A stretch of 64,000 bases of DNA from Labilithrix sp. (GTDB taxonomy: Bacteria > Myxococcota_A > Polyangia > Polyangiales > Polyangiaceae). Positions 1 to 46,789 of this stretch are shown here, one piece after another. The stretch's first letter is position 1. Each line of letters opens with the position of its first letter. The DNA is taken from contig JAHBWD010000045.1 of assembly GCA_019637175.1 (NCBI GenBank), forward strand, positions 1 through 64,000. The letters run 5' to 3'. Made by a program: the position numbers and the translations under genes. Below the pieces are notes generated by a model that did no database searches, had not been told where the DNA came from, and saw only the letters and a list, made by a program, of their open reading frames with translations.

Positions 1-262
1 CTGTCGTAGCCGCCGCCGCTGTCGTAGCCGCCGCCGCTGTCGTAGCCGCCGCCGCCGTCATAGCCGCCCGTGTCGTATCCACCGGCGTCGGCGCCGCCGT
101 CATAGCCGCCCGTGTCGTATCCGCCAGCGTCAGCTCCGGTGTCATAGCCGCCCGCATCGCCGGTGTCGTAGCCGCCGGCTTCGGCGCCCGCGTCGTCGTA
201 GCCGCCGGCGTCGTCGTAGCCGCCGGCTTCGGCGCCCGTGTCGTCATAGCCGCCGCTCTCGT
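1..262. repeat. Degenerate tandem repeats encoding GGYD[S/T/D/A] units
   Basis: Short 15-21 bp units of the type cgtagccgccg/ctgtcgtagccgcc are repeated across the left edge. On the minus strand they encode Gly-Gly-Tyr-Asp units with variable spacers (GAEA, AGG, TGD). Such arrays change length easily, so copy number may differ between strains or assemblies. Confidence 0.85.
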
Positions 263-995
263 CGCCGGCTTCCGCGTTCGCTTCCCCGCCCGTCTCGCCG
301 CCCGCGTTCGCTTCCACGTCCGCTTCCGCTTTCGCTTCCCCGCCCGTCTCGCCGCCCGCGTTCGCTTCCACGTCCGCTTCCGCGTTCGCTTCCCCGCCGG
401 CCTCGCCGCCCGCGTTCGCGTCGCTCCCGGCTTCCGTGTTCGCCTCCCCTTCCGACTCCGCGCCCGCGTTCGCTTCGCTGCCCGCCTCCGCGTTCGCTTC
501 CCCGCTCGTCTCGCCGCCCGCGTTCGCCTCGCTACTCGATTCCGTGTTCGAGCCGCTCTCTCCGTTCGTCTCGTTCGACGTATCCCCCGCGGTGCTGCCC
601 GCCTCGCCCGTGTTGCTCGCCTCTCCGGTGTTCTCGTTCCCCGCGCTCGGCGGCGTCGGCACGCTCGGCGTCGTCGACTGCGGCGCCTCGAAGCGCCCGG
701 GACTGATCGACCCGTCGGGGTTCACCGACGCAGGGATGTACGTATCGCCCGGCGCGCCGTTGCCCGGCGTCGGGTTCAGATACGAGTCGACGCGGTTGTA
801 GATGCTGTTGAGCGTCTCGATCGCCTGCGTCCCGCGCGCCACGAGCAGCGCCGGGTTCTGCGCGAGCACCATCGCCATGGGCGCAGCCATCGCCCCGACG
901 ACGAGCGGTAGAAAGAAGAGCCCTCCCTGTACGTTCTCGAGCTCTGCCTCATCGAGCTCGATCCAAGTCGGCTGCGGCGCGTCCATGTCCTTCAT
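1..995 (-). CDS. Double-glycine-leader secreted repeat protein (partial, 3' end beyond window)
   Basis: The frame reads leftward from an ATG at 995 and stays open to the window edge (at least 331 codons). A GGAGG lies 5 nt upstream of that ATG. The N-terminus carries LDEAELENVQGG, which matches the bacteriocin/ComC-type double-glycine leader (E at -8, L at -7, V at -4, GG at -2/-1); it is followed by a hydrophobic stretch of about 20 residues (LFFLPLVVGAMAAPMAMVLA). The next part (about residues 45-110) is Pro/Ser/Thr-rich. From about residue 110 the protein becomes Glu/Asn/Ala/Gly repeats with an 18-residue period, then GGYDx repeats up to the edge. Family knowledge: such leaders are cleaved by C39-peptidase ABC exporters, none of which is visible here. 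The inference is an exported, surface or extracellular repeat protein or an unusual RiPP-like precursor. It is divergent from the RCC1 lipoprotein gene. The true C-terminus is unknown. Confidence 0.8.
   Translation of the reverse strand, partial: MKDMDAPQPTWIELDEAELENVQGGLFFLPLVVGAMAAPMAMVLAQNPALLVARGTQAIETLNSIYNRVDSYLNPTPGNGAPGDTYIPASVNPDGSISPGRFEAPQSTTPSVPTPPSAGNENTGEASNTGEAGSTAGDTSNETNGESGSNTESSSEANAGGETSGEANAEAGSEANAGAESEGEANTEAGSDANAGGEAGGEANAEADVEANAGGETGGEAKAEADVEANAGGETGGEANAEAGDESGGYDDTGAEAGGYDDAGGYDDAGAEAGGYDTGDAGGYDTGADAGGYDTGGYDGGADAGGYDTGGYDGGGGYDSGGGYDSGGGYD
277..434. repeat. 54-bp tandem repeat inside the double-glycine-leader gene
   Basis: The motif TTCGCTTCCCC recurs at 277, 331 and 385, a 54-bp (18-residue) period; the first two copies are nearly identical over their whole length and the third is partial and diverged. 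The minus-strand translation is a Glu/Ala/Gly/Asn-rich unit. The period is a multiple of three, so copy changes would keep frame. Confidence 0.8.
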
Positions 996-1000
996 CGGTG

Positions 1001-1005
1001 CCTCC
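1001..1005 (-). promoter_or_regulatory. Shine-Dalgarno GGAGG deciding the start at 995
   Basis: GGAGG sits 5 nt before the ATG at 995. It favours this start over the internal ATG at 986, which would shorten the leader by three residues. Confidence 0.7.
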
Positions 1006-5981: not shown

Positions 5982-7655
5982 ATGCCGGAGTTCATCTTCA
6001 CGATGCAGGGGGTCACGAAGGTGCACCCCCCGGACAAGAAAGTCCTCGACAACATTCACCTCGCCTTCTTCCCCGGGGCCAAGATCGGCGTCATCGGCGC
6101 CAACGGCTCGGGCAAGAGCTCGCTCATGCGAATCATGGCCGGCGTCGACAAGACGTTCGGGGGCGAAGCCAAGCCGCACCCGGGTACGAGGATCGGCTAC
6201 TTCGCGCAGGAGCCCGACATGGGATCGGCGAAGACCGTCGCCGAGGCGGTCGCCGAGGGCGTGGCCGAGACGCGGGCGCTCCTCACGCGCTTCGAAGACA
6301 TCAGCACGAAGCTCGGAGAGCCGATGTCCGACGACGCGATGGCGCAGCTCCTCGAAGAGCAGGCGCAGCTCCAAGACAAGATCGACGCCGCCGACGCGTG
6401 GAACCTCGATCGGCACGTCGAGCTCGCGATGGATGCGCTCCGCGTGCCGCCGCCCGAGGCGGAGATCGAGAAGCTCTCCGGCGGTGAGAAGCGGCGCGTG
6501 GCGCTCTGCCGCCTCCTCCTCTCGCGCCCCGACATGCTGATCCTCGACGAGCCGACCAACCACCTCGACGCCGAGTCGGTCGCGTGGCTCGAGCACTTCC
6601 TCCACGAGTACACGGGCACCGTCGTCGCCGTGACCCACGACCGGTACTTCCTCGACAACGTCGCCGGATGGATCCTCGAGCTCGATCGCGGCCGCGGTTA
6701 TCCGTTCAAGGGAAACTACACGGGTTGGCTCGAGCAGAAGTCGACGCGCCTGTCGCAAGAAGAGAAGGCCGAGTCGGCGCGCCAGCGGAAGCTGAAGCAA
6801 GAGCTCGAGTGGGTGCAGGCCTCGCCGCGCGCGCGTCAGGCCAAGAGCAAGGCGCGCCTCGCGGCGTACGAGGAGCTCGCGGCGGCCGCGGCGAAGGGGC
6901 CGAGCGATCCCACCGAGATCTCGATCCCGCCGGGCCCGCGCCTCGGCGACGTGGTCATCGAGGCCAAGGGCCTCACCAAGGGCTTCGGCGACAAGCTGCT
7001 CTTCGACGATCTCAGCTTCATCCTCCCGCGCGCGGGGATCGTCGGCGTCATCGGGCCGAACGGCGCCGGCAAGACGACGCTCTTCAAGATGCTCGTCGAC
7101 CAGGAGAAGCCCGACGGCGGAGAGCTGAAGCTCGGCGAGACCGTGAAGATCTCGTACGTCGATCAGTCGCGCGACGCGCTCGCGGGCGACAAGAGCGTCT
7201 GGGAGGTCATCACGGGCGGCGAGCCGACGCTCACGCTCGGCAAGCGCGAGGTGAACAGCCGCGCGTACTGCTCGTGGTTCAACTTCAAGGGCTCGGACCA
7301 GCAGAAGAAGGTGAAGGACCTCTCCGGCGGCGAGCGCAATCGCGTGCATCTTGCACGCTTGCTGAAAGACGGCGGAAACCTCATCCTCCTCGACGAGCCG
7401 ACGAACGATCTCGACGTCGAGACGCTCCAGGCGCTCGAGAACGCGCTCCTCGGCTTCCCCGGCTGCGTCGTCGTCATCTCCCACGATCGCTGGTTTCTCG
7501 ATCGCATCGCGACGCACATGCTCGCCTTCGAGGGCGACAGCAAGGTCGTGTGGTTCGCCGGCAACTACCAGGCGTACGAGGAAGACCGCAAGAAGCGCCT
7601 CGGCGACGACGCCGCGCAGCCGCACCGCGTGAAGTTCCGCAAGCTCGCGCACTGA
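5982..7655 (+). CDS. ettA: Energy-dependent translational throttle protein EttA (ABC-F)
   Basis: The 557-residue product has the ABC-F layout: two ATP-binding cassettes with Walker A motifs GANGSGKSS and GPNGAGKTT, signatures [11 protein letters not shown] and [11 protein letters not shown], and Walker B segments [11 protein letters not shown] and [12 protein letters not shown], joined by a charged linker. The N-terminus ([14 protein letters not shown], then FFPGAKIGV) and the length are those of the EttA subgroup rather than Uup or antibiotic-resistance ABC-F proteins. Family knowledge: EttA binds the ribosomal E site and gates the first elongation step according to ADP/ATP ratio. It is a cytoplasmic housekeeping gene, divergent from the DUF1592 operon and convergent with the LuxR-type regulator. 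Confidence 0.96.
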
Positions 7656-7664
7656 GCGCGAGTC

Positions 7665-7680
7665 TGACCGCGGGCGGTCA
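7665..7680. terminator. Short perfect hairpin between convergent genes
   Basis: TGACCG-cggg-CGGTCA forms a 6-bp perfect stem with a 4-nt loop between ettA and the convergent LuxR gene, and its right arm includes the LuxR stop codon. There is no T-run, so it would at best be a weak bidirectional transcription or RNA-end structure. Confidence 0.35.
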
Positions 7681-8961
7681 CGGCGCGCCGCGCGGCTCGT
7701 TCCCCGCGACGGCCCTCGCGAGCTGGCTCCGATTGGAGACGCCGAGCTTGTCGTAGATCGTCTGGAGCTGCTTCGCGACCGTGCTCGTCGCCACGCCGCG
7801 CGCAGCCGCGATCCGCGCGTTGCTGACGCCTCGAGCCACGTACTCGGCGACCTCGTGCTCCGCGACGGTGAGTCGCTCGGCGATCGCCTTGCCGGCGCCG
7901 ACGTCGACGGAGATCACCTCCAGCCGATCTTCGGCGAACGACAAGTCGAGCGACACCGCGCGAGGCGCGTCGAGCATGACCGCCAGATCGACGCGCGTCC
8001 GAAAGCGCAGCTTCTTCATGATCTGCGTCACGCACCCGGAGACGGTCTTCTCGGAGAGGCCGAGCGCGTAGCTCGCCTCCTTGTTCGTCGCGCCGAGCGC
8101 GACATAGCGCAAGACGCTCTGCTCGCTCGCCGTGAGCGCGCGTGGATCGCGCGAACCCGGCTGGTTCGCGTACGCCGCGATGTAACGGCGGCCGCCTTGC
8201 TCCCAGTGGTCCACCAGCGACCACTGGCCGGCGACGAGCCCTCGCCAGAGCTCGAGCGCTCGTTCCGGCGACGCGCGGACCTGCGCGCTCCGCGCCTGCT
8301 CCATCGCGCGCACGGCGTCGCCGAGCGCCCTCCGCGCGGTGTCGTCGTCCGCGACCGTCGCGCTCGCGTCCTCGAGCTTGCCGGACGGAGAGAGCAAGGC
8401 GTCGCGGCGGGTCGCCCGCGCCGCGAGCTTGCGCCGAAGCCGCAGGCCAGCGACGACGTGCAAGCCGACGCGCTGCCAGATCCCGCGCACGCGCGGCGAC
8501 GGCTTGACCGGCGCGGGCGCGGGCGACGCGACGGTGACGCTCCCGCCCTGCGCGTCCTGCGCGAACATGCAGAACCCGTCGACGACGCCGGCGACCGCCA
8601 TGACCTGACGGAACTGCGCGACCGTCGGAGACCCGGCGCCGAGCACCTGCTCGAGGCCTCCGCACGTCACGTGCCGCTTGCGGAGGACGTCGAAGAGCGC
8701 GGTCGGGGCCGTCTCGTTCAGCTCCAAGAGGCGCGCGCGGAACGCAGGCACGAGGGCGCGCTCCGCGAACACCTGGCTCCGCTCGGGATCGGCGTTCGTC
8801 GCGTCTCCCGTGAATGCGTAGAGTCCGCTTCCGACGTCGAGATCGGAGCGCGCGACGTCGAGCAACGCCCGGAGCCACGCGGCTTCCGAACCCGAAAGAT
8901 CGTAGGCGGCCTCGACGATCTCGACGGCGGACGCCGCGCGGATGACGTTCGTGCGTCCCAT
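7678..8961 (-). CDS. LuxR-family regulator with two C-terminal HTH domains
   Basis: The 427-residue protein has an N-terminal region of about 250 residues without a clear motif, then two separate LuxR/GerE-type helix-turn-helix domains. The first is around residues 262-318 (LTASEQSVLRYVALGATNKE onward) and the second around 358-415 (LTVAEHEVAEYVARGVSNAR onward). LuxR proteins normally carry one such domain. The first copy keeps the usual EKTV recognition-helix entry; the second has TSTVAKQLQTIYDKLGV. It is presumably a cytoplasmic transcription factor; the N-terminal signal and targets are unknown. A TATGCT hexamer 14 nt before the ATG could be its -10. It is divergent from the ZU5-like lipoprotein gene. 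Confidence 0.85.
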   Translation of the reverse strand: MGRTNVIRAASAVEIVEAAYDLSGSEAAWLRALLDVARSDLDVGSGLYAFTGDATNADPERSQVFAERALVPAFRARLLELNETAPTALFDVLRKRHVTCGGLEQVLGAGSPTVAQFRQVMAVAGVVDGFCMFAQDAQGGSVTVASPAPAPVKPSPRVRGIWQRVGLHVVAGLRLRRKLAARATRRDALLSPSGKLEDASATVADDDTARRALGDAVRAMEQARSAQVRASPERALELWRGLVAGQWSLVDHWEQGGRRYIAAYANQPGSRDPRALTASEQSVLRYVALGATNKEASYALGLSEKTVSGCVTQIMKKLRFRTRVDLAVMLDAPRAVSLDLSFAEDRLEVISVDVGAGKAIAERLTVAEHEVAEYVARGVSNARIAAARGVATSTVAKQLQTIYDKLGVSNRSQLARAVAGNEPRGAP

Positions 8962-9135
8962 GAATGACGGGCACGAGCATAGCTCGTCGTCCGAACGGGC
9001 GACGGCGATCGGCCAATGCGCCCGGTGAATTGAGTATGGCGAGCGCGGGACCGCGGCTCGAAGATGTCGACGAGTCGGCGGCCCTGTCGCTCGCTCATCC
9101 CGTTCGCATCGTCGTGCACACTGGAGGATCGCCCA

Positions 9136-10455
9136 ATGAACGCCACGAGGTTGGTTCCTGCGTTGATGTCGCTACTCGTCGCGCTCGCGTCTTGTGGCGA
9201 CGGTGAGTCGTCGGCCGACAGGTCCCTCTCGTTGAGGAGCGAGCCCGCCGTCACCGACGTGGGCACGCCGACGGGGCAGGCCGTCACGCGGACGATCGGC
9301 CCCTCGGGAGGGACGCTCTCGAGCGCGGACGGAAAGCTCGAGATCGTCGTCCCGCCGGGCGCGCTCACCGTCGACACGGAGCTCAGCATCACGCCCATCT
9401 CCGCGACCGCGCCGGGCGCGCTCGCGGCGTGGCGGCTCGGCCCCGAAGGCACGACGTTCGGCGCGCCGGTGAGCCTGCGGTTCTCCGCGAGCGACGCCGA
9501 CCTCGCCGGATCCGAGAGCGAAGCGCTGCGCCTCGGCACGCAGCGCGCCGACCGGACGTGGGCGATCCTCACCGCCGCGGAGCGCGACGGAAAGACCCTC
9601 ACGGTCCGAACGACGCACTTCTCCGACTGGAGCGCGCTGCTCGGATGGCAGCTGCGCCCAGGCTCTGCGAAGGTCAAGACCGGCCAGAGCGTGAAGCTCG
9701 ACGTTCGGTACTGCCATCTCGTCGAGGACGAGAGCGAAGAGCTCGCGGGGATCGCGGCCGAGTGCCAGGAGCAAGACCTCCAGCCGATCCTCGGCGCGTG
9801 GGCGGTCAACGGCGTCGCGGGCGGCGACGCCTCTTCCGGGACGATCACCAACGCCGACGCGAGCGCGACGTACACGGCGCCGTCGTCGACTCCGTCTTCG
9901 AATCCGGTGGCCGTGAGCGTCGAGTTCGACCCTACGAGCCGCCGAAAGACGCTCCTCGTCTCGAACATCGACGTCGTCGGCGCGAGCGGCTACTCAGGCA
10001 CGTTCTCGTTCTCGACGAAGGCAGCGAACTACGAGATCGAGGCGACCGAAGGCTTCGTGGAGTGGACCGTCGACCACGAGAGCTCGGATCGGCGCGAATA
10101 TGCGCCTTCGGGGACGGTGCGGCTCAAGTTCACGAGCTCGAGCCCCGCGTGCGATCCGGTCGAGGGCACGTACCCCATCGAAGAGGGAGACCTCGTCGTT
10201 CACGCCGCGAGCGCGCCGATGTTCGCGAGCCAGTACACGTTCAACGTGCGACTCACGCCGAGCGTCACGCTCTCGTGCCGCGGCTACGACGGACAGCCGT
10301 TCACGACGAGCTTTCAGATCCCCGCGTACTTGCAGGTCGGGCTCTGCGACGGCGCGACCCTCCCCGGGTACGTCGACGAACGTCAGCTGACGGGCAGCGG
10401 AGCGTGTCCCGTCGTCGGTGTCGTCGCCTCGTCGTGGAGCTTCACGATGCCGTGA
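9136..10455 (+). CDS. ZU5-like domain lipoprotein
   Basis: I start this 439-residue protein at the ATG at 9136 because a GGAGG lies 8 nt upstream and a clear lipoprotein signal follows (LVALASC). Residues about 45-150 resemble a ZU5 domain: a GGTL start, a VPPGAL core, a GPEGTTF...PVSLRF segment, and a THFSDW end. The rest is beta-rich and unassigned, with several cysteines late in the sequence. Family knowledge: secreted ZU5 domains are interaction modules, sometimes in autoproteolytic ZU5-UPA arrangements; no such cleavage site is evident here. The role is unknown, with location inferred as an outer surface lipoprotein. Confidence 0.8.
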   Translation: MNATRLVPALMSLLVALASCGDGESSADRSLSLRSEPAVTDVGTPTGQAVTRTIGPSGGTLSSADGKLEIVVPPGALTVDTELSITPISATAPGALAAWRLGPEGTTFGAPVSLRFSASDADLAGSESEALRLGTQRADRTWAILTAAERDGKTLTVRTTHFSDWSALLGWQLRPGSAKVKTGQSVKLDVRYCHLVEDESEELAGIAAECQEQDLQPILGAWAVNGVAGGDASSGTITNADASATYTAPSSTPSSNPVAVSVEFDPTSRRKTLLVSNIDVVGASGYSGTFSFSTKAANYEIEATEGFVEWTVDHESSDRREYAPSGTVRLKFTSSSPACDPVEGTYPIEEGDLVVHAASAPMFASQYTFNVRLTPSVTLSCRGYDGQPFTTSFQIPAYLQVGLCDGATLPGYVDERQLTGSGACPVVGVVASSWSFTMP

Positions 10456-19813: not shown

Positions 19814-21172
19814 TTGCACGTCCACCTCATCGCCCCCTCGAACGAAGACTCGACGTACATCAAGCCGTTGTGGGTCGGCTCGCTCGCCGCGCACACGCCC
19901 GACGACGTCGAGCTCACCTTCCGCGACGACGGGATCTCGCCGATCGATCTCGACAAGGAGTCGGACGCGCCCGATCTCGTCGGCATCAGCGTGAGCTCGA
20001 AGACCGCCGCGCGCGCGTACGCGATCGCCGACGCGTATCGCAAGCGGGGCAGCAGGGTGATCCTCGGCGGCATCCACGTGACGGCGCTGCCGGAAGAGGG
20101 TCTCGCGCACGCCGACGCGGTGCTCTCGGGCGAAGCCGAGTGGCTCTGGGAGAAGGTGCTCGAAGACGCCAAGGCCGGCAAGCTCGGTCGCTCGACCTCG
20201 CTCCTCTCGCGCGGGATCTACAAGCACAAGGAGTGGCCGAGCCTCGAGGGTCTGCCTCGCCCGCGCCGTCACCTCACGACGTCGAAGATGTACGTGCCCT
20301 TCGACGTCGTGCAGACCACGCGCGGGTGCCCGTTCCCGTGCGAGTTCTGCAGCGTCTCGACCTACAACGGCACGACCTTCCGCTTCCGGCCCGTGCGTGA
20401 GGTGATCGCCGAGCTCGAGACGGTCGGGCCGCGCGTCCTCTTCGGCGACGACAACGTGATGATCCACACGAAGTACAGCCGCGAGCTGTTCGAGGCGATG
20501 GTGCCCCTGAACAAGCACTGGGTCGCGCAGGCCTCGCTCGCCGCGCTCCACCGCGTCGAGAACGTCGAGGTGATGGCGCGCGCCGGGTGCAAGGCGCTCT
20601 TCATCGGCTTCGAATCGGTCGACGTCGAGACGGTGCGCGCCTCGGGCAAGAAGCAGAACAAGCCCTCGAAGTACCGCGAGATCGTGCGCACGCTCGCCGA
20701 CCACGGCATCGCCGTCTGGGGGAGCTTCGTCTTCGGCCTCGACGAAGACACCGGCGCCGCCTTCGATCGCACGGTCGAGTTCTGCATCGACGCCAAGATC
20801 ACGATGGCGCTCTTCGCGCTGCTCACGCCGTACCCGGGCACGCGCCTCTACAAGCGCCTCAAAGAAGAGGGGCGGCTCACGCGCGACGCCTGGTGGCTCT
20901 CGCAGGATCACGACACGGGCGCGCCCTTCTACCAGCCGAAGCAGCTCACGCGCGACGAGCTCCGCAGCGGCTGGGTCCGCGCGTGGCGGAACATGTACTC
21001 GTACCCGTCGATCATGAAGCGCTACGACTTCGCGCTCGATCACTCGTGGGTGCAGAACGTCGCCTACTGGCCGCTGAACCTCCTCATGCATCAGCTCGCG
21101 GAGCGAAAGATCGCCAAGGGCGATCGCAGCTTCCGCAAGCACCGCGCGATCGAGCTGCCGTTCGGCCTGTGA
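19814..21172 (+). CDS. Radical SAM protein with N-terminal B12-binding-like domain
   Basis: The 452-residue product uses a TTG start. Residues 1-115 look like a cobalamin-binding Rossmann domain (DLVGISVSSKTAARAYAIADAYRKRG, then VILGGIHVTALPEE) but lack the DxHxxG histidine motif, so cobalamin would bind base-off or not at all. The radical SAM core follows with CPFPCEFC (CxxxCxxC, binding the 4Fe-4S cluster), then FGDDNVM and IGFESVD segments typical of the family, and a C-terminal DUF4070-like tail. Family knowledge: relatives act in hopanoid, lipid or pigment modification. The substrate is unknown. It is probably cotranscribed with the upstream unknown gene; a strong hairpin follows it. Confidence 0.9.
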   Translation: MHVHLIAPSNEDSTYIKPLWVGSLAAHTPDDVELTFRDDGISPIDLDKESDAPDLVGISVSSKTAARAYAIADAYRKRGSRVILGGIHVTALPEEGLAHADAVLSGEAEWLWEKVLEDAKAGKLGRSTSLLSRGIYKHKEWPSLEGLPRPRRHLTTSKMYVPFDVVQTTRGCPFPCEFCSVSTYNGTTFRFRPVREVIAELETVGPRVLFGDDNVMIHTKYSRELFEAMVPLNKHWVAQASLAALHRVENVEVMARAGCKALFIGFESVDVETVRASGKKQNKPSKYREIVRTLADHGIAVWGSFVFGLDEDTGAAFDRTVEFCIDAKITMALFALLTPYPGTRLYKRLKEEGRLTRDAWWLSQDHDTGAPFYQPKQLTRDELRSGWVRAWRNMYSYPSIMKRYDFALDHSWVQNVAYWPLNLLMHQLAERKIAKGDRSFRKHRAIELPFGL

Positions 21173-21182
21173 GCGCGCCGTG

Positions 21183-21225
21183 AGCGCTATGGATCGCGCG
21201 TCCCACGCGCGTGGATCCATGCGCT
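21183..21225 (+). terminator. Long bulged hairpin after the radical SAM gene
   Basis: The left arm AGCGC-t-ATGGAT-CGCGCGT pairs with ACGCGCG-tgg-ATCCAT-GCGCT around a CCC loop, giving 18 bp with two small bulges. It starts 10 nt after the radical SAM stop. There is no T-tract, so it may act as a Rho-associated terminator, an RNA-stabilising 3' end, or a DNA site. Confidence 0.5.
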
Positions 21226-21386
21226 GCGTCGGTTCGCCCTCAGGTCCATCTCACCTGGTGGGAGCAAAAACTCGGTTTCGTCGTCTCCGTCCGCTCCGGC
21301 GCGACGGATCGCGCCGATTTTCGCGAGCGGCGGGCCCTGACGCATAAAAACGTCTTTGGCCCTTTCGGTGCAAAGTCCCTCGCGGG

Positions 21387-22496
21387 ATGACTCGAACGGG
21401 ACGCCGCGCCGGCACACGCGCTCGCGGCGCGAGCGCCGTGCAGTACATGGTGATCGTCGCGCTGGTGCTCGGCGCGATCGCCGGCGCCGTGAGGGTCTAC
21501 GGAGCCTCGATCGAGTCGGGCTCGGGCAAGCTCGCCACCCACGTGAAGACGCAGGGCGGCGGCGGCGCGATGCCGGCGCACGATCTGACGTCCGCGCTGA
21601 ACGGCCTCGGCGAGGGATCGCCGACCGATCCCGTCCCGTCGTCGAACCCGGACGATCCGGTCGAGGCCGATCCGGCGGCGCTGCTCGATCGCGTCCCGAC
21701 GCTCGGCGACGACGAGGAGCCTCCGCCGGCCGAGCAGGAGGAGCCGCCGGTCGACTACGACGCGCCCCGGCGCGCGCTCATCCGCGGCGTGCCCTTCGTG
21801 CGCGGCGAGGGGCATCGAACGCCGGTGCACCCGGCGGACGTCTCGCAAGGCGCGATCGCGAACTGCTATTTCATCGCGCCGCTCGCGTCGATCGCGCATC
21901 GCGTGCCCGGGCTGCTCCAGTCGGGCATCATCCGCAACCCGCGAGGCAACGGCTACCTCGTGCGCCTCTTCGTCGACGGCCGCGCGCGGTGGGTGCCGGT
22001 CGACAGTCGGTTCCCGGTCAACGACGACGGCCAGCCGATCTACGCGCAGCCCGGTCAATCCTCACCAAGGGGCCAGGAGCTCTGGGTGATGCTCTACGAG
22101 CGCGCCTTCGCGAGCGTCGGCGGCGGCTACAACGGCATCGGCCACGGCGGAAACGCCGCCGCGGCGCTCGAGATGCTCACGGGCCAGCCGTCGACGAGCC
22201 ACGATCCCGCCCGCATGTCGTTCCGGACCTTCGCCGCGTACGTGAACCACGGCTACGCCGTCGTCGCGGGGACGCCGGAGAAGAGCGATCACGAGCTCTT
22301 CAAGAACGACACGCTCGCGACGTGGCATGCTTACTGGGTGGAGAGCGTCGACGTCAGGCGCGGCACGGTCACGCTGCGCAACCCCTGGGGCTGGCAGGAG
22401 GCCCCCATCACCCTCACCTGGGCGGAGTTCCGCCAGGTCTTCGGCTCGGTCATGACGAACCCCATCACCCCACGCGCCCCGGCGAGGCAACGATGA
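21387..22496 (+). CDS. Flp/TadE-pilin-like N-terminus fused to calpain-type cysteine protease
   Basis: The 369-residue protein opens with a basic segment followed by GASAVQYMVIVALVLGAIAG, which closely resembles the processed start of Flp/Fap pilins (GAxxxEY plus hydrophobic helix), except that Q replaces the usual E. A Pro/Asp/Glu-rich linker (about 75-125) leads to a C2 calpain catalytic core. The nucleophile Cys160 lies in QGAIANCYFIAPLAS, His314 in WHAYWVESV and Asn332 in LRNPWGW, so the triad is complete. No calcium-binding C2L or EF-hand region is present. Its stop overlaps the ATG of the next gene. It is inferred to be a membrane-tethered or pilus-exported protease. Confidence 0.85.
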   Translation: MTRTGRRAGTRARGASAVQYMVIVALVLGAIAGAVRVYGASIESGSGKLATHVKTQGGGGAMPAHDLTSALNGLGEGSPTDPVPSSNPDDPVEADPAALLDRVPTLGDDEEPPPAEQEEPPVDYDAPRRALIRGVPFVRGEGHRTPVHPADVSQGAIANCYFIAPLASIAHRVPGLLQSGIIRNPRGNGYLVRLFVDGRARWVPVDSRFPVNDDGQPIYAQPGQSSPRGQELWVMLYERAFASVGGGYNGIGHGGNAAAALEMLTGQPSTSHDPARMSFRTFAAYVNHGYAVVAGTPEKSDHELFKNDTLATWHAYWVESVDVRRGTVTLRNPWGWQEAPITLTWAEFRQVFGSVMTNPITPRAPARQR

Positions 22497-26387: not shown

Positions 26388-27350
26388 CTATTTCGTATGT
26401 CGTCCGAGCGCGAGCACGTGATCGAGACCGGCCGAGAGGAAGCCGAACACGTCGTCGGCGTTGGTCGACGTGACGTGGACCCGATCGAACGACCCTCGGA
26501 AAGCGCGCGCAATCTCGGGCATCGTCTCGGTGATCATGACCTCCCGCAGGCGCGCTTCGGTCAGGTCTTCGTAGGCGCCGCGCTCCGCGCGGACGAGCGC
26601 GGCGTCGGCTTCGCCCGCCTCGCGCTTGGCCTCGAGCTCGATCGCCGCGCGCTCGCGATCGGCCTCGGCCTTGCGCCGCGCGCGGGCGAGCTCCGCTTCG
26701 AGGCGCTCGCGCGCGAGCTCGTCTTCGGCGCGCTGGCGCTCGGCCTCGACGCGCGCGCGCTCCTGGCGCACGCGGTCTTCCGCGACGAGCGCTTCGAGCG
26801 CGAGCCTCTCTCGGAACGGCGCCTGGAGACGCGCGAACACCTCGGCCGAGAGCACCCTCACGTCTTGGATCTCGATCGTGTCGAGCACGACGCCCCAGCC
26901 GCTCGCGTTCTCGTCGAGCGCGCTCCCCTCGCCCGCGAGGATCGGACGGATCTCGCCCATGAGCGCCTCGGCGACGCGATCCTTGCGGTGGGTGATGCAC
27001 TCGTCGAGCGTGAGGCGCGAGACGATCCGGCGCGTCGCGCCCACGAACATGTCGCGAAGGATCTCGGTCAACGTCGAGCGCTCGACGTCGATCATGCGGA
27101 ACGCCACGAGCGGGTCGGCGATGCGGTAGACGGCGAGGCCGCGCACCTCGACGCCGACCTTCTCGGTCGTGACCTGATCGGCCGCGAACGACAGCTTGGC
27201 GATCGACGTCGGGACGACGGCCACGCTGTCCCATGGCCACTTGAAACAGGAGAGGCCTTGGCCCGAGCGGATCACGCGACCTCGGCGCATCTGGATCAAG
27301 TGCTCGTTTGCGTTGGCCGTCACCCGGCCCCATCGAGGGATTTCTCTCAT
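26388..27350 (-). CDS. SPFH/band-7 domain protein
   Basis: The 320-residue protein contains an SPFH (prohibitin/flotillin-type) domain around residues 15-190 (GLSCFKWPWDSVAVVPTSIAKL, VEVRGLAVYRIADP, LRDMFVGATRRIVSRLTLDECI) followed by a long charged Ala/Glu/Arg-rich coiled coil (about 190-265) and a short C-terminal domain. No obvious N-terminal membrane helix is present, unlike classic flotillin or HflK, so it may be a peripheral scaffold. I use the ATG at 27350; a TTG at 27368 is an in-frame alternative. It is divergent from the MshEN-PilZ gene, 113 bp between starts. Confidence 0.85.
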   Translation of the reverse strand: MREIPRWGRVTANANEHLIQMRRGRVIRSGQGLSCFKWPWDSVAVVPTSIAKLSFAADQVTTEKVGVEVRGLAVYRIADPLVAFRMIDVERSTLTEILRDMFVGATRRIVSRLTLDECITHRKDRVAEALMGEIRPILAGEGSALDENASGWGVVLDTIEIQDVRVLSAEVFARLQAPFRERLALEALVAEDRVRQERARVEAERQRAEDELARERLEAELARARRKAEADRERAAIELEAKREAGEADAALVRAERGAYEDLTEARLREVMITETMPEIARAFRGSFDRVHVTSTNADDVFGFLSAGLDHVLALGRHTK

Positions 27351-27463
27351 CGCAGGCGTTTCCTGCAAGCCGAGCGCCGCGCCGGCGCGGGCCCGAATCC
27401 TCGACCGATCGCGCGATCACGGGCTACCAGACCTCACCAGAATGGTGCGACCATCCGTCATCC

Positions 27464-29566
27464 ATGCTCCATTCGGTACCGCTCGGCCGCCTCCTCATCG
27501 AAACGGGAAGCATCACCCAAGCAGCGCTCGACGAAGTCCTCGCCTTGCAGAAGACGGATCGTCGCCGGCTCGGCGTGCTCCTCGTCGAGCGTGGGCACGT
27601 GCAGCCGCAGCAGCTCGCGCAGCTGCTCTCGCGCCAGCTGAGCTGTCCGTGGATCTCGCTCGACAAGATCGAGATCGCGCCCGACGTCGTCGCGCTCTTG
27701 CCACGCGAGGCCGCGGTCGCGTTCAACGTCGTCCCCGTCCATCTCCGCGCGGGGCCCGACGGCAAGCGCGCGCTCTACATCGCGACCGACGATCCGACCA
27801 ACGAAATGGCGCTCGGCGAGTGCGCCCAGTACGCGAAGATGCCGGTGCGGCCGATGGTGGCCGTCACCCACGAGGTCCACGCGGCGCTCACGCGCTTCTA
27901 CGGCGCGCCTCCCGGCGACGCGCCGCCCGCGCCCGCGCCCGCGCCTCCGGCCGCGCGACAGGCGCCTCCTCCGCTGCCGCGGAGGAAGACCGACTACCCC
28001 ACGGCGATCGCGGTCGAAGACGCCGACGTGATCGAGGTCGACGCGCCGAGGCCTGCGCCGAAGCGCGCGCCGACGGTCTTGACCCTCAACGCGCCCGAGC
28101 CGTTCCTCGCGCAGTGCCGCGCGGCGGGCAAGGCGCTCGGCGCGACGGTGATCGACGGCGTCATCATGCGCGCCGGCGAGCTCGTCAAGGAGCATCGACC
28201 TTGCGCCATCGTCGTCACCGACGACGTCTACGCGTTCGATCGATCACGGCTCAACCGCCTCGCGCTCGACAACGACGCGCACCTGGTGGTCTGGGCGGAC
28301 GACGCCGACGGCCATCAGCTCGAGCCGCTCATCGCCGGGGCGATCGATCGATGGGGCCGCTCGTCGTACGAGAAAGGCGCGATCGTCGACGGGCGCTTCG
28401 AGCTCCTGCGCGATCTCGGAGACACGGCGTCGCACACGTCGTCGATGGGCTCCCGCTGGGAGGTGCGCAACGTGCGCACCGCGCGGCGATCCGTCCTCGC
28501 GCTCGCGATCCGAACGGAGGGCGACGACGCAGGCGCGAACGCGATCCGCCGCGAGCAGCTCGCGCTGGCGAAGGTCTCGCATCCCGGCGCCATCGAGCTC
28601 CGCGACGCGGGCACCACCGAGCTCGGCGATCCCTACCTCGTGCTCGAGCCGCTCGAAGGTCGTTCGCTCGACGGTCTCGTGGCCGCGCGCGAGAAGCTCC
28701 AGCCCGACGAGGCCTGCGCCGTGGTGCTCCAGATCGCCGACGTTCTCGTCGCCGCGCACGCGGTCGGCGTCACGCACGGCAACGTCGTCGCCGAACAGAT
28801 CATCGTCGTGCGCGACGGATACGGGGTCGAGCGCGTGAAGCTCACCGGTTGGGGGCGCGCGGCGGTGACGGATCCCGAGAGCGTCGCCCCCGCGGGCGAC
28901 ATTCGCGGGCTCGGGCGCTGCGCGTACGAGGCGCTCACCGGCCGACTGCCGAAGGAGGGCGAGGAGAGCGGCCTCGCCGAGCCGCTGGGCGGCGTCGTCG
29001 CGCGCGCGGTGGCGACGGAGAACGCGTTCGCGACGATGAGAGAGCTTGCGAGCGCGCTCTCCGCCGCCGCGCCGCGCGCGCGAGAACGGACGCAGCTCCT
29101 CGAGCGATCGCTCGGCGCCAGCTCTCGCGAATCGCTGCCCGCCGGCACGAGCCCGCCCCAGAGCGCGGCGGCTCCGGGCCCGGCCGCGGGCGAGGCCACG
29201 GCCACGGGCCCCGAGCAGCGACGCCACGCCCGCGCGCCCTATCGCACGCCGGTGCGCATCGAGGTCCCGGGCCTGGGCGTGCTCGACGGGCGCAGCGAAG
29301 ACATCTCGCGCGGCGGTCTGCTCGTCGTCTCCCGCGGCGGCCTGAGCGCCGGAACGGAGGTGACCGTTCGCTTCGCCCTCCCGCTCGACGGCAAGGTCGT
29401 CGCCGAGGCCGCCGTCGTGAAGTGGTCGCGCGCCGCACGCGCAGACGAGTCATCGGGGCGCGCGCTCGGCGTCGAGCTGACATCGCCGTCGCAGGAGTGC
29501 GTGCGCCAGATCGAGCGCTACGTGTCCTTGATGGGAGACGGCTCCGAATCCACATTCACCCCGTGA
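27464..29566 (+). CDS. MshEN-pseudokinase-PilZ fusion, predicted c-di-GMP receptor
   Basis: The 700-residue cytoplasmic protein has three recognisable parts. Residues about 5-150 are a T2SSE_N/MshEN domain with two tandem copies of the c-di-GMP-binding motif (LGRLLIETGSITQAALDEVL... and LGVLLVERGHVQPQQL...). Residues about 310-545 resemble a Ser/Thr kinase with lost catalysis: HRD is HGN and DFG is GWG, and no VAIK lysine is visible. Residues about 585-690 form a PilZ domain with RRHAR and DISRGG, the two c-di-GMP motifs. A Pro-rich linker and a segment of unknown fold lie between. No ATPase core of the secretion ATPases is present. It is coupled to a small downstream gene by a GTGA overlap. 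Confidence 0.88.
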   Translation: MLHSVPLGRLLIETGSITQAALDEVLALQKTDRRRLGVLLVERGHVQPQQLAQLLSRQLSCPWISLDKIEIAPDVVALLPREAAVAFNVVPVHLRAGPDGKRALYIATDDPTNEMALGECAQYAKMPVRPMVAVTHEVHAALTRFYGAPPGDAPPAPAPAPPAARQAPPPLPRRKTDYPTAIAVEDADVIEVDAPRPAPKRAPTVLTLNAPEPFLAQCRAAGKALGATVIDGVIMRAGELVKEHRPCAIVVTDDVYAFDRSRLNRLALDNDAHLVVWADDADGHQLEPLIAGAIDRWGRSSYEKGAIVDGRFELLRDLGDTASHTSSMGSRWEVRNVRTARRSVLALAIRTEGDDAGANAIRREQLALAKVSHPGAIELRDAGTTELGDPYLVLEPLEGRSLDGLVAAREKLQPDEACAVVLQIADVLVAAHAVGVTHGNVVAEQIIVVRDGYGVERVKLTGWGRAAVTDPESVAPAGDIRGLGRCAYEALTGRLPKEGEESGLAEPLGGVVARAVATENAFATMRELASALSAAAPRARERTQLLERSLGASSRESLPAGTSPPQSAAAPGPAAGEATATGPEQRRHARAPYRTPVRIEVPGLGVLDGRSEDISRGGLLVVSRGGLSAGTEVTVRFALPLDGKVVAEAAVVKWSRAARADESSGRALGVELTSPSQECVRQIERYVSLMGDGSESTFTP

Positions 29567-40801: not shown

Positions 40802-41122
40802 GATGACACGCGTCGGAGCAATGAGTGGGCCGTCGGCCTCGTCTCGACGCCGGCGGTGGTCGCCGATCGCATCTCGGTGAAATCGCTGGCGGAGGATCGC
40901 TTCGATCCTCCCGGTCCTTCACTGCGCCATGGATCGCGGCTCCGGCCGCTGCTGCCGTCGAGCCGCAACGCATGCGTCGAGCCCTCGCGTGGAATTTTTC
41001 AGGGCAGAGGGCGCTCTGCGCGTTCGGCGGGGAATCGCTCCCACGTTTCCGGGCGTTTGGCGTGAAACGGCGCCGTCCTCTCGCTCGCCGAGGCGATCGT
41101 GCCCTCCACGCTGGAGAGATCA
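40802..41122. other. Intergenic region (321 bp) between divergent genes
   Basis: No gene, RNA or clear repeat is seen. It must hold the promoters of the GAF-like gene and of the alpha-2-macroglobulin/pbpC operon, but I find no convincing -10/-35 pair. A GGAGAG ribosome site lies at its right end. Confidence 0.6.
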
Positions 41123-44100
41123 ATGAAACGACGCGCGGCAATGTGCGCGCTCGGCGGGCTCGTCGCGATCGTGGCTGCATCTCACGGATGTCATCGCCAC
41201 GCGGCGCCGCCGCTCGGCCTCGTCGTGGGGAGCACTGGCCCCGTCAGCTTTCCGCCGCCCGAGGAGGGCTGGTCGGAGCGTCTCCCGCTGCCGGCGCAGA
41301 CGTCGGACGTGACGCTGAAGGCCGACGCGCAGCTCCGCGTGACCGAGCCCAAGCTCGACGACAAGGGTCACTTCGAGACGAAAGGGCAAGCGATCCGCCT
41401 CTGGTTCAGCGAGCCCGTCGTCGCGATCGACGAAAAGACCGACACGAAGAAGCTCCCCGCGCTCCAAGTGACGCCCAGCGTCGTTGGCCGCACCGTGTGG
41501 ACGCACGGCAGCGAGGTCGAATTTCGCGCGGAGAGGCCGTTCGATCCCGAGACCACCTACGCGATCGCGCTCCCCGAGCTCACCGCGCCGAACGGCAAGA
41601 AGCTCGAAGGCGGCTTCAGGGCGACGTTCAAGGCCGAGCCGATCGTCGAGGTCGCGGGCAAGACGATCTACTACATCCCCAAGCCCGGGCGCGCCCGCGT
41701 CGTGACCATCACGCCGAACGACGCGTCGAAGCTCGGCGGCGCGCAGGAGGTGCTCGTCGTCTACGATCAACCGATCGACATCGGCCTCGCGAGCCGCCTC
41801 GTGAGCATGAAGTCGACGGACGCGAACAAGACGCCGATCCCCGTGGTCGTGCGCCACCCCGAACGGCGCGCATTCGAAGGGCAGAAGATCGATCCGCGCC
41901 TCATCGTCCTCGCGCGCCCGCGGCAAAAGCTGCGCGGGGGCGAGAGCTTCACCGTCGAAGCGAAGAGCCAGAACGCCGACGACGAGACGGAGTCGCGCGA
42001 CTACGGCGTCGCCGAGCCGACGACGCTCGTCGAGGTGGCGTGCGGGAGCGGGAGCGGCGACTGCGAAGCCAAGGGCAACGTCGTCCGCGGATCGTCGAGC
42101 GCGTCGCTCCGCGTGCGCTTCTCGAACCCGCTCGGCCTCGGGTACGACGGCGGCAGAAAGCACGTCAAGATCACGCCGGAGCCGAAGAACCTCTACGTGT
42201 CCGGCTGGGACGAGCTCACGATCTCGGCGAGCTTCTCGCCGTCGACGACGTACGCGATTCGCGCCGAAGGCATGAGAGACGAGTACGGCGGGGCGGTGCC
42301 GCCCGTCGCGATCACGTTCGAGTCGCTGCCGCTCTCGGCGAGCGCGACGATGCCGTCGGGCGTGAGCCTGCTCGACGAGGGCGCGACGCGATCGTTCCCC
42401 GTCACGACGCGCAACGTCGACAAAGCCGAGCTCCTCCTGTGGCCGCTTCCGAAGGGCGACGCGGCCGCGTTCGCCGCCGCGCGCAAGGCGACGCAGGCGT
42501 GGACGACGCCGAGCGGCGATCCGGTCGTCGTCGCGTTCTCGCCGGCGCAGAAGCGCGACGAGACCGTCGAGACGTCGATCGATCTCGGATCGAAGCTCGA
42601 GCGCGGGCGCGCGTACGTCGCGCAGGTCAAGGTCACGCAGACGTCCGCCGGCGCGCGCGCGCCGGCGTTCCCCGCGGGCAGCGAGGCGAGCCGGCCTTCG
42701 CTCGCGATGATCTTCGCCGCCGGGCAGAACGCGCTCTCCGCGCACGTGCACCAGGCAGGCGACAAAGCCGCGGTGCAGGTCACGCGCCTCGCGAGCGGCG
42801 AGCCCGTCGCCGGCGCGCGCGTCTCGATCGGATCGGCGTCGGCGACGACCGACGACATGGGCACCGCGCTCCTCGCCGCGCCGCGACCCTCGCCCGGTGA
42901 AGAGCCGATCCTCTCGGTCACATCGGGCGACGCCGAGCTGATGCTTCCGCTCGGGAGCGCGGGCACGATCGCGTCGCGCGCGCTCTTCCCCGATCTCGCC
43001 GGCGCCGAAGACGCGCCGCCGCCGATCGAGAGCGTCGGAATGATCGTGACCGATCGCGGGCTCTACAGGCCCGGATCGAAGATGTTCGTGAAGGGTTTCG
43101 TCCGCAAGGCGGAGGGCGCCGGCATCCGTCCGATCCCGGGCGCGAAGGTGCGCCTGCGCGTCGTCGATCCGATGAACAAGGACGTCCACGACGAGGCCCT
43201 CGTCACGAGCGCGCGCGGCGCGATCGACAGAGAGGTCGCCTTCGACAAGCGCGGTCACACCGGGCGCTTCCACGTGCTCCTCGAGCTCGACGACGGCAAG
43301 CACACCGTGATCGCCGACGAGACCGTGCGCGTCGCCGACTTCGAGGCGCCTCGCTTCAAGGTCGACGTCGAAGCCGTCGACGCGAGCCCCTCTCCGACGA
43401 ACGTGAAGGCCAAGGTCAGCGCGCGCTACCTCTTCGGCGCGGCGATGGGCGGCGCGCGGGCGACGTGGGTGATCAAGAAGTCGAAGGTTCCGGTCAAGGG
43501 CGGCGCGCTCGCCGACGCCGGCCTCTCGTTCGCGCGTGAGCGCGATTGGTACGAAGACGACGACGCGCCCGCGAGCGAAGCGCAGAGGCCCGTCACCGGC
43601 GAAGGCGTGCTCGCCGAAGACGGCACGATGACGATCGACGCCGTCACCGGACCGCTCGCCGACGGGCCGACGGAGCTGCTCGTCGAGGCCGACGTGTCCG
43701 ACGCGTCGTACCGTCACGTCGCCGGGCAGATGCGCGTCGTCCGCGATCCGCACGCGCGGCACGCAGGGCTCAGGCTCTCGCGCCGCTTCGGCGACGGAGG
43801 TCAGCCGCTCCGCGTGGACCTCGGTGTGGTCGACGCCGCGGGCAACGCCGTCGCGGGCGCGAAGGTCTCGGCGCGCCTCGAGCGGCTCACGTGGAGCCGC
43901 TCGGCGCAGCGAACGGAGAGCGGCGCCTTCGTCGAGCGATGGAGGTACGCCGGCAAGACCGAGGCGGAGTGCAGCGTGACGAGCGCGGCGTCCCCCGTCT
44001 CGTGCGATCTGCCCGTCCCTCACGGCGGAAGCTTCCGCGTCATCGCGCGCGTCGACGGTCGCGACGACGCGTACACGTCGTACTGGGCGTACGGGAGCTG

Positions 44101-46789
44101 GCTCTCCGGTACGTCGAGCGTCGCGCCCTCGCAAGGCAAGAGGGTGCAGGTCGTGCTCGACAAGGGGCGCTACAAGAACGGCGAGACCGCCAAGCTCCTC
44201 GTTCAGAGCCCGTTCGCAAAGGCGATCGCGCTCATGACGCTCGAGCAAGGCGGGATCGTCGCGCACACGTCGAAGCGGATCGAAGGTCCGAGCGCGACGT
44301 TCGACGTCCCGATCTCGTCGGCGAACGCGCCTTGGGTCCACGCCGCGGTCACGCTCCTCCCCGTCGGCGGCGGCGACGCCGACTACCGCGTCGGCGTCGT
44401 GCGCATCCCCGCCTCTTCCGACGACGCGCGCCTCGAGGTCAAGGTCGCGAGCGCCAAGAAGAGCTACGAGATCCGAGACGAAGCCGAGATCACCGTCGAG
44501 GTGAAGAAGGGCGGCGCGCCGGTGAAGAACGCCGACGTGACGCTCGCCGTGGTCGACGAGGGCGTCCTTCGAATGACCGCCTACCACCCGCGCGATCCGG
44601 TCTCCGCGCTCCGCCCGGGACGCGGGCTCGACTTCCTCGTCGGCGACAGCCGCGCGTCGATGCTGCGGCGCCGCGAGAAGGCGCACGTCGCCGGCGGCGG
44701 CGACAGCGAGGGCGAAGAGTCGCTCGACACACGAAAGAGCTTCGTCGAGACGGCCGCGTGGCTCCCGAGCCTCGTGACCGACGGCGAGGGCCGCGTGAAG
44801 GCCAAGGTGAAGCTCCCCGACAACCTCACCGAGTTTCGCATGACCGCCGTCGTCGTCGACGACGCCGGCGGCGGCGGGACGTCGGAGTCGAGCTTCGTCG
44901 TGAGCCGGCCGCTCCTGCTCGAGCCGATCATGCCGCGCTTCGCGCTCCAGGGCGATCGCTTCGAGGCGGCGGCGATGGTCCACAACGACACCGACGCGCC
45001 CGTCGCGGCGAAGGTGACGGTCGCGGGCGAGATCCGCGACGTCACGATCCCCGCGCGCGGCCGCCAGCGCATCTCCGTCTCGATGACCGCCGAGCGCTCG
45101 CGCAAGATGCGCTTCGCGCTCGAGACCTCCGGCGTGGTGCGCGACAAGGTCGAGATCCCGCTCCGCGTCGACGTCCCCGGGATCGACGAGCACCCGATGG
45201 TCTCGGGCGTCTTCGGCGACACGCAGGTGGTCGACCTCGCCATCCCTCCAGACGCCGTGTTCGAGGAAGGCGCGATGCTCTCGATCAAGACGGGATCGGC
45301 GCTCTACCCCGAGCTGGGGCAGCGCCTCTCGTACCTCCTCGACTATCCGCACGGCTGCGTGGAGCAGACGACGTCGAGCACGATCCCGCTCGTCGCCGCG
45401 CGCACCATCCTCCCGTGGACGGGAACGACGAGCCTCGACGACGACGAGCTCCGGCGACGCATCGAGGCGGGCGTCACGCGCCTCGCGACGATGCAGACCG
45501 CGGGCGGAGGCCTCGCGTACTGGCCGGGCGGCAGCGAGCCCAACGTCTACGGCTCGGCGTACGCGATGCGCGTGCTCGTGCGCGCGAAGGAGATGGGCAT
45601 CAGCCGGCCCGAGCTCATCGAAGGCGTCTCCAAATTCCTCCTCTCGCGCCTGCACGACGAAGCGTCGCCCGAGCTGTCGATGTCGATCGCGGAGGTGCTC
45701 GCGCAGGCCAAGGAGCTGCCGGAGAGCGCCGCCGACGGCCTCTACGACCGACGGGAGAAGCTCGACGCCTCCGGGCTCGCGAGCCTCGCGATCGCGCTCT
45801 CGTCGCTGCCGAAGCAAGACGATCGCGTGCGCGACGTGCTCGATCGCCTCGAGAGCGCGTTCGACGAGCAGGGCGCGTCGAAGATTCCCCACGACGCGCG
45901 CGACTGGCACTTCTGGGGCTCCAGCGATCGCGATCGCGCGCAGGCGATGATCGCCCTCACGCGGCTTCGACCGAGCTCGCGCGTCTTGCCGACGCTCGCG
46001 TCGCGCGTGTCGAAGGGGCTCGACCGCTGGTCGACGCAGAGCACCGCGTGGTCGCTGCTCGCGCTCGCCGACTTCATCGGCACACGCACCCCCGACGGAG
46101 GCGTCGACGTCAGCGTGAAGCTCGAGGGAAAGATCCTCGACACCTACGCGAAGCTCGGCGGCGACAACAAAGAGGTGCGCGTGCCGCTCGCGCAGATCGC
46201 GGGGAAGAAGATCACGCTGCTCTTGACCGGCGACGCGAAGACGCCGAGCGCCTTCGCGCTCGAGGCGCGCTACAAGAGGCCGCTCACGGGCGCCGGGACG
46301 AAGATCGCGCGTCGAGGTCCTTCGGGCGTCTCGATCCATCGCGCGTACAGCGACGCCGCGGGCAAGCGCATCGATCTCGACGCGGTGAAGCCGGGGCAGA
46401 TCGTGCGCGTCGCCGTCCGCGTCGATCTGCCGACGCTCGACGACTACCGCCTCGGCTACCTCGCGGTCACCGATCGGCTGCCCGCGGGGCTCGAGCCGCT
46501 CGACACGGACCTCGCGACGACGGGATCGATCGCCGATCTCGCGAAGGATCACCCCTTCTACGAAGGGCTCTCGGCGTACGGCAGGGCGGCTTCGCACGTC
46601 GACCTGCGCGACGACAAGGTGCAGCTCTACTTCGATCGCACCTACGGCGGTCGCGCGGTCTACGCGTCGTACCTCACGCGCGCGACGACGCCGGGGACGT
46701 TCACGCTGCCGCCGGCGATGGGTGAGCTGATGTACGAGGCCGGCAGCGAAGGCTACAGCGACGCGCAGCGCGTGACGGTGAAGCCTTGA
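41123..46789 (+). CDS. Bacterial alpha-2-macroglobulin (thioester type)
   Basis: The 1888-residue protein begins at the ATG at 41123 with GGAGAG upstream and a signal peptide ending near HGC (a weak lipobox). It has Big-like domains, MG domains (SVGMIVTDRGLYRPGSKMFVKGF), a bait-region-like stretch, the A2M core (VEAKLPDNLTEFRMTAVVVDD type segment, here VKLPDNLTEFRMTAV) and the thioester motif GCVEQ with Cys at about residue 1412 and Gln three residues later, then the alpha-helical thioester domain. Family knowledge: it traps proteases that breach the outer membrane, anchored in the periplasm. Its stop overlaps the pbpC start (TTGA), the same gene order as yfhM-pbpC in enterobacteria. Confidence 0.95.
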   Translation: MKRRAAMCALGGLVAIVAASHGCHRHAAPPLGLVVGSTGPVSFPPPEEGWSERLPLPAQTSDVTLKADAQLRVTEPKLDDKGHFETKGQAIRLWFSEPVVAIDEKTDTKKLPALQVTPSVVGRTVWTHGSEVEFRAERPFDPETTYAIALPELTAPNGKKLEGGFRATFKAEPIVEVAGKTIYYIPKPGRARVVTITPNDASKLGGAQEVLVVYDQPIDIGLASRLVSMKSTDANKTPIPVVVRHPERRAFEGQKIDPRLIVLARPRQKLRGGESFTVEAKSQNADDETESRDYGVAEPTTLVEVACGSGSGDCEAKGNVVRGSSSASLRVRFSNPLGLGYDGGRKHVKITPEPKNLYVSGWDELTISASFSPSTTYAIRAEGMRDEYGGAVPPVAITFESLPLSASATMPSGVSLLDEGATRSFPVTTRNVDKAELLLWPLPKGDAAAFAAARKATQAWTTPSGDPVVVAFSPAQKRDETVETSIDLGSKLERGRAYVAQVKVTQTSAGARAPAFPAGSEASRPSLAMIFAAGQNALSAHVHQAGDKAAVQVTRLASGEPVAGARVSIGSASATTDDMGTALLAAPRPSPGEEPILSVTSGDAELMLPLGSAGTIASRALFPDLAGAEDAPPPIESVGMIVTDRGLYRPGSKMFVKGFVRKAEGAGIRPIPGAKVRLRVVDPMNKDVHDEALVTSARGAIDREVAFDKRGHTGRFHVLLELDDGKHTVIADETVRVADFEAPRFKVDVEAVDASPSPTNVKAKVSARYLFGAAMGGARATWVIKKSKVPVKGGALADAGLSFARERDWYEDDDAPASEAQRPVTGEGVLAEDGTMTIDAVTGPLADGPTELLVEADVSDASYRHVAGQMRVVRDPHARHAGLRLSRRFGDGGQPLRVDLGVVDAAGNAVAGAKVSARLERLTWSRSAQRTESGAFVERWRYAGKTEAECSVTSAASPVSCDLPVPHGGSFRVIARVDGRDDAYTSYWAYGSWLSGTSSVAPSQGKRVQVVLDKGRYKNGETAKLLVQSPFAKAIALMTLEQGGIVAHTSKRIEGPSATFDVPISSANAPWVHAAVTLLPVGGGDADYRVGVVRIPASSDDARLEVKVASAKKSYEIRDEAEITVEVKKGGAPVKNADVTLAVVDEGVLRMTAYHPRDPVSALRPGRGLDFLVGDSRASMLRRREKAHVAGGGDSEGEESLDTRKSFVETAAWLPSLVTDGEGRVKAKVKLPDNLTEFRMTAVVVDDAGGGGTSESSFVVSRPLLLEPIMPRFALQGDRFEAAAMVHNDTDAPVAAKVTVAGEIRDVTIPARGRQRISVSMTAERSRKMRFALETSGVVRDKVEIPLRVDVPGIDEHPMVSGVFGDTQVVDLAIPPDAVFEEGAMLSIKTGSALYPELGQRLSYLLDYPHGCVEQTTSSTIPLVAARTILPWTGTTSLDDDELRRRIEAGVTRLATMQTAGGGLAYWPGGSEPNVYGSAYAMRVLVRAKEMGISRPELIEGVSKFLLSRLHDEASPELSMSIAEVLAQAKELPESAADGLYDRREKLDASGLASLAIALSSLPKQDDRVRDVLDRLESAFDEQGASKIPHDARDWHFWGSSDRDRAQAMIALTRLRPSSRVLPTLASRVSKGLDRWSTQSTAWSLLALADFIGTRTPDGGVDVSVKLEGKILDTYAKLGGDNKEVRVPLAQIAGKKITLLLTGDAKTPSAFALEARYKRPLTGAGTKIARRGPSGVSIHRAYSDAAGKRIDLDAVKPGQIVRVAVRVDLPTLDDYRLGYLAVTDRLPAGLEPLDTDLATTGSIADLAKDHPFYEGLSAYGRAASHVDLRDDKVQLYFDRTYGGRAVYASYLTRATTPGTFTLPPAMGELMYEAGSEGYSDAQRVTVKP

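Follow-up and report, generated by a model that had tools for sequence, protein, structure and literature searches.

A textbook double-glycine export leader, a "cut and export" tag normally found on short antibiotic peptides, heads a long Gly-Tyr-Asp repeat protein encoded on the minus strand at the left edge of the DNA analyzed here, a stretch of 64,000 nucleotides (the window) from Labilithrix sp., a soil-type bacterium of the Polyangia. Given this tag, the repeat protein probably leaves the cell to serve as surface or matrix material. Our working explanation, which we consider reasonably probable from the sequence evidence, combines export in trans by a C39-peptidase system with such a role at the surface or in the matrix. 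If true, Gram-negative double-glycine export would reach beyond short peptides to disordered repeat proteins of considerable length. Genome mining by leader, with its tendency to drop long open frames, would then be overlooking a class of exported materials. In the literature searched, which covered subscription journals sparsely, no double-glycine leader on a Gly-Tyr-Asp repeat protein is described.

Gene architecture and coding evidence

The coding frame of the repeat protein occupies positions 1–995 of the minus strand, with 331 complete residues within the window and the last 18 on another contig, C145. It opens at the ATG at 995, and a Shine-Dalgarno-like GGAGG, recognized by sequence, lies five bases 5′ of it (1001–1005, minus strand). 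From this start the protein reads, in order and all on the minus strand, as the leader MKDMDAPQPTWIELDEAELENVQGG (residues 1–25, positions 921–995), a hydrophobic segment LFFLPLVVGAMAAPMAMVLAQ (residues 26–46, 858–920), a spacer (residues 47–120, 636–857), a region of EAN/GGE repeats (residues 121–247, 255–635), and a tail of GGYD repeats (residues 248–331, 3–254) that runs on into contig C145 as ...GGGYDSGGGYDGGGGYDAGVGEY followed by the stop. The hydrophobic segment is 21 residues long and uncharged, with a GRAVY of 1.95, and the EAN/GGE region carries 32 acidic residues and a single basic one. The hydrophobic stretch and both repeat types (3–635, minus strand) lie behind the leader much as the earlier note had described them.

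Third-position GC is 0.85–0.90 in each of three segments of the repeat protein, and all differences among the GGYD units in the window (12 of 12) are synonymous and confined to third positions; the repeat is therefore one at the protein level, in the minus-strand frame. A single-sequence AlphaFold2 model places helices at residues 16–46 and 48–73 (pLDDT about 70–80), the second of them a predicted helix at the start of the spacer, which then turns Pro/Thr-rich. Disorder is expected of the charged tail after the hydrophobic helix. NCBIfam models of MSCRAMM adhesins (ClfB/SdrC) reach 24.7 of 999 bits against the repeat protein, a match to repeat composition only.

Within the spacer lies a short motif, PGDTYIPASVNPDGSISPGRF (690–752, minus strand). 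A predicted protein of a relative (G020:C30, 19226–20752, minus strand; L002/L092), in other respects different from the repeat protein, bears two copies of it, GNPGDTYVPASMNPDGTIAPARF and RPGDTYVPAHLNGDGSITPAH, at its C-terminus; no double-glycine leader was seen in that protein.

Contig join and protein length

The host genome comprises 9.1 Mb in 151 contigs, and the first base of the window coincides with a contig edge, that of C92. Only one further close GGYD match was found in this genome, at the right end of C145. The last 31 bases of that contig are the first 31 of the window, and the frame stays open across the overlap. The joined frame stops 18 residues into C145, after ...GGGYDGGGGYDAGVGEY, which gives a protein of 349 amino acids unless the assembler collapsed repeats; because the join sits within the repeat, the copy number may be too low. 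The mature part, computed from the joined frame, comprises 324 residues (30.7 kDa, pI 4.05), with 60 acidic and 4 basic residues and 18 tyrosines. The earlier note had spoken of a large protein with hundreds of residues of repeats running past the left edge. The continuation ends after 18 residues, so that a long repeat protein stands while its size comes down to about 349 residues, if the repeat is uncollapsed.

A double-glycine leader above chance

The structure-based consensus for substrates of C39 exporters, derived from the complex of the peptidase-containing ABC transporter (PCAT) PCAT1 with its substrate CtA, reads L(−12)xxxE(−8)L(−7)xxxxGG, with −4 as a specificity position (PMC6959990). 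The first 25 residues of the repeat protein end in LDEAELENVQGG and fit this consensus exactly, with L−12, E−8, L−7, G−2, and G−1, plus V−4 and W−15. Cleavage is predicted, by analogy with the family, directly C-terminal to the Gly-Gly codons (921–926, minus strand). Scored against a matrix compiled from eleven known leaders, the leader attains 14.3 bits; of the 686 Gly-Gly sites in the window, all frames counted, the next best attains 5.8. Residue-shuffled sites reach 14.3 bits in 1 of 500 trials. The leader, the sole site of its kind among these 686, is thus above chance expectation.

Two curated models come close. TIGR03949 gives 20.9 bits (cut-off 21.5; E 2e-4) on residues 1–75, and is unlisted in a scan of the whole 331-residue frame; TIGR01847 gives 13.8–15.1 bits (cut-off 15.7). 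Because both scores fall just under their cut-offs, no family name is assigned. The leader contains 7 acidic residues and 1 basic residue, and the positively charged start of a Sec- or lipoprotein-type signal is absent; a net charge of −6 directly ahead of that segment speaks against a Sec signal.

Across the whole genome, the pattern L...EL..[VI].GG occurs at 8 places, versus 4 for a reversed control pattern. Three of the 8 are N-terminal, namely the repeat protein and two short precursors; the other five were rejected as leaders, being internal to other proteins or at gene starts that are not credible. One precursor, on contig C62, is a 76-residue member of the mersacidin family (TIGR03898, 27.7 bits, over the cut-off of 23.5) beside a LanM that carries DUF4135 plus LANC_like. 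At this locus (L161, about 6700–10224), the mersacidin-type lanthipeptide precursor, with a SCGTTTGSCLACKRSQTTGACK core, lies directly 5′ of the LanM gene. The other, on contig C83, is a 74-residue double-glycine leader peptide adjoining a radical-SAM protein. There (L060, about 7430–10110) the peptide MSNENEKKDEKNEEGLTEEELADVTGG... is encoded upstream of the radical-SAM gene, and the two probably constitute a RiPP locus without a name. As both genes encode precursor peptides, the other N-terminal matches to the pattern in this genome look like real exporter substrates. No C39 gene was found on either precursor contig.

A homologue in a distant relative

The TIGR03949 model, restricted to the leader and first hydrophobic residues and run on 290 relatives, returned one weak match that is a gene of the same architecture, in a member of the Kofleriaceae (G215; JAGPCO010000060.1). 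Its product begins MSSTRPAPTELIVLDASELEDASGGLVPLL... / MSSTRPAPTELIVLDASELEDASGGLVPLLAAGAAAL... and carries a tail of GGGYDAGGGGDGGG units, in the order leader, helix, spacer, and GYD repeats; a contig edge truncates it, and its spacer shows no clear alignment. The N-termini of the two proteins align with 35% identity. This homologue came from a leader-only model that is blind to the tail. Other TIGR03949 matches, ALKTEELAAVDGGLMLL in several relatives, were dismissed as leaders since they are internal to a longer conserved protein, as were profile matches in G068 and G087, which are internal and lack Gly-Gly.

A strict DNA-level search for the pattern LD..ELE...GG over 317 Polyangia genomes yielded 59 places, all but a few of which were read in context. 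Among those for which a frame was extracted, only the host gene and the Kofleriaceae gene have the leader at the N-terminus, and both are GYD-tailed, although the pattern took no account of the tail; the places read in the 317 genomes held no third such case. In the 11 further genomes examined from the genus, no convincing match turned up, and homologue searches with the first 113–119 residues returned, apart from the protein itself, only low-complexity or composition matches. Matches to the GGYD tail in the 317 genomes were likewise set aside as homologues, being mostly lipoprotein or linker repeats (GGFDSGG, GPGHDAG) without a double-glycine leader.

Elsewhere in the Kofleriaceae genome, a frame of about 184 residues of SSYDSGSSYD repeats runs off a contig end (G215:C201, locus L162, 6056–6610, minus strand). 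This frame may supply the C-terminus that the homologue lacks, or it may encode a separate repeat protein; a comparison of the contig end with the contig of the homologue (C30) found no exact overlap.

Taken together, the leader reading of the earlier note has good support from the consensus positions, from another genome that pairs this leader with a tail of the same type, and from sibling leaders on clear precursor peptides.

Exporters and gene neighborhood

Three C39 ABC exporters are encoded in the host genome, on contigs C13, C64, and C75, and all three retain the catalytic Cys, His, and Asp. The C13 and C64 exporters each lie within a TolC, C39-ABC, and HlyD-like operon, while that on C75 belongs to an NHLM cluster (TIGR03796, 03797, and 03794, all over cut-off). 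This NHLM-type cluster (L027, 2192–9040) comprises two ABC subunits, an HlyD-like protein, and a cyclic-nucleotide-binding-like protein. The listed lengths of two of the exporters, 1142–1188 residues, are probably too long; in the C13 exporter, some 380 residues at the N-terminus look to be an extension in the wrong frame, without which about 800 amino acids remain. The Kofleriaceae genome possesses C39 exporters too.

An exporter gene beside the gene of a PCAT substrate is usual and not obligatory. Beside the repeat gene, on C92/C145, no exporter was found among the recognized neighbors, and export would have to work in trans; the prediction of a neighboring C39 exporter fails, all of them being on other contigs. 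Downstream, on C145, a Ser/Thr protein kinase is followed by an acyl-CoA dehydrogenase-like frame, and upstream lies a divergent RCC1-like lipoprotein (the latter two by sequence). No RiPP modifying enzyme was recognized among the near neighbors scanned, which leaves the suggestion of a new kind of precursor, in the sense of a modified peptide, unsupported. Within the window, the closest radical-SAM gene found, one of the B12-binding type, lies 19 kb off (19814–21172).

Further along the plus strand of the window, this B12-binding radical-SAM gene is followed by one for a calpain-family cysteine protease (19814–22496); bacterial calpains are uncommon. A single frame at 27308–29566 has MshEN, PilZ, and partial protein-kinase matches and is possibly a c-di-GMP-linked kinase. 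At 41099–49191, a gene for a bacterial alpha-2-macroglobulin (1896 amino acids) is followed, with a 4 bp overlap, by one for a PBP1C-like transglycosylase/transpeptidase; this pairing is known.

Proposed export and alternative explanations

In the mechanism we propose, the acidic N-terminal leader would dock on the peptidase domain of a PCAT and be cut by the C39 domain directly after Gly-Gly, whereupon the mature chain, unfolded and about 324 residues long (31 kDa, pI about 4), would be threaded through a type I channel of ABC, HlyD-like, and TolC components encoded elsewhere in the genome. No specific cargo-binding site is reported in PCAT transmembrane domains (PMC6959990), and a long disordered cargo would therefore be acceptable in principle. 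Outside the cell, the hydrophobic helix at the N-terminus would anchor the protein at the envelope or nucleate it there. The Gly-rich Tyr/Asp repeats would form a flexible, acidic, sticky tail capable of Tyr contacts or cross-links and of cation binding, such that the protein would end as surface or matrix material. The composition suggests a tail that is held at the envelope or assembles itself, with contacts through Tyr and charges from Asp. We regard C39-dependent export as likely; the surface or matrix role, which is read from composition only, is plausible, if a shade short of an even bet. More doubtful, though conceivable, is the broader notion that some Polyangia export a silk- or resilin-like acidic polymer by the double-glycine pathway, with glycines as spacers, tyrosines as stickers, and aspartates as charges, which would self-assemble on the cell surface and represent a protein material, rather than a peptide signal or toxin, as PCAT cargo.

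Four other explanations deserve weighing. An ordinary membrane or envelope protein, with a leader-like acidic cytoplasmic tail, a membrane helix, and a disordered tail, would account for the 21-residue hydrophobic stretch directly after the leader and for the nonadjacent exporter. We consider it unlikely, given that the consensus positions recur in two genomes from different families, that the sibling leaders in the genome belong to precursor peptides, and that 7 acidic residues and 1 basic residue before the helix are the wrong charge distribution for a Sec signal anchor. Distinctly unlikely is a contact-dependent, surface-held bacteriocin with Cdz-like C39 export, whose hydrophobic segment would kill and whose repeat tail would display it. 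The N-terminus does resemble the class IIb lactobin A/cerein 7B leaders (20.9 bits versus a cut-off of 21.5), and Cdz proteins go out by type I secretion and stay surface-held (PMC5380434); however, these are mostly hydrophobic proteins of 84–86 residues, while the mature repeat protein is strongly acidic and 324 residues long, its hydrophobic segment lacks GxxxG repeats, and no partner peptide or immunity-like gene was recognized beside its gene.

The two RiPP-like loci that hold the genome's other leaders lend some color to a RiPP precursor, in which the GGYD repeats, in principle possible cores, would be cross-linked or cyclized at Tyr/Asp before export. With a kinase, an RCC1-like lipoprotein, and an acyl-CoA dehydrogenase-like frame as the recognized near neighbors, and the closest radical-SAM gene found in the window 19 kb distant, this is very unlikely. 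Hardly credible, and already disfavored, is the idea that the frame is degenerate, or open by chance, in repetitive DNA: the sequence is of low complexity, sits at a contig edge, and leaves other frames open too, but the third-position GC pattern, the synonymous-only repeat variation, the ribosome-binding site, the in-frame stop on the joining contig C145, and the existence of a homologue all speak against it.

Comparison with known systems

The preferred reading, C39 export followed by a surface or matrix role, has partial parallels among several systems. EbfG1–4 of Synechococcus elongatus are four proteins from one operon, which we take to be small. By their published description they invite likening to the repeat protein: C39-type transporters assist their export, they come to lie on the cell surface and within the biofilm matrix, and some form amyloid (PMC9981879). 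MAM of Faecalibacterium, a 135-residue protein with a double-glycine leader for which PCAT export and an envelope lattice are proposed (PMC12184118), is a whole protein under such a leader as well; unlike the repeat protein, it has a folded helical core, an adjacent PCAT, and no repeats. CdzC/CdzD of Caulobacter are bacteriocin-like proteins that form surface-kept aggregates after type I secretion (PMC5380434); in contrast to the repeat protein, they are small, hydrophobic, glycine-zipper toxins with an immunity gene.

The closest family alignment is with the class IIb lactobin A/cerein 7B peptides (TIGR03949), over the leader and first hydrophobic residues (E 2e-4), at a score below the curated cut-off; the repeat protein departs from this family in length, charge, and tail, and its mature part is not a short peptide. 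With established PCAT substrates (CtA/PCAT1, ComC, and class II bacteriocins; PMC6959990), it shares L−12, E−8, L−7, G−2, G−1, and a hydrophobic −4 residue, whereas their cargoes are short (66 residues in CtA) and here about 324 low-complexity repeat residues follow, with a nonadjacent exporter. EbfG, MAM, and Cdz, for none of which a comparable repeat tail is described, are precedents for the double-glycine or type I export of surface proteins other than diffusible peptides.
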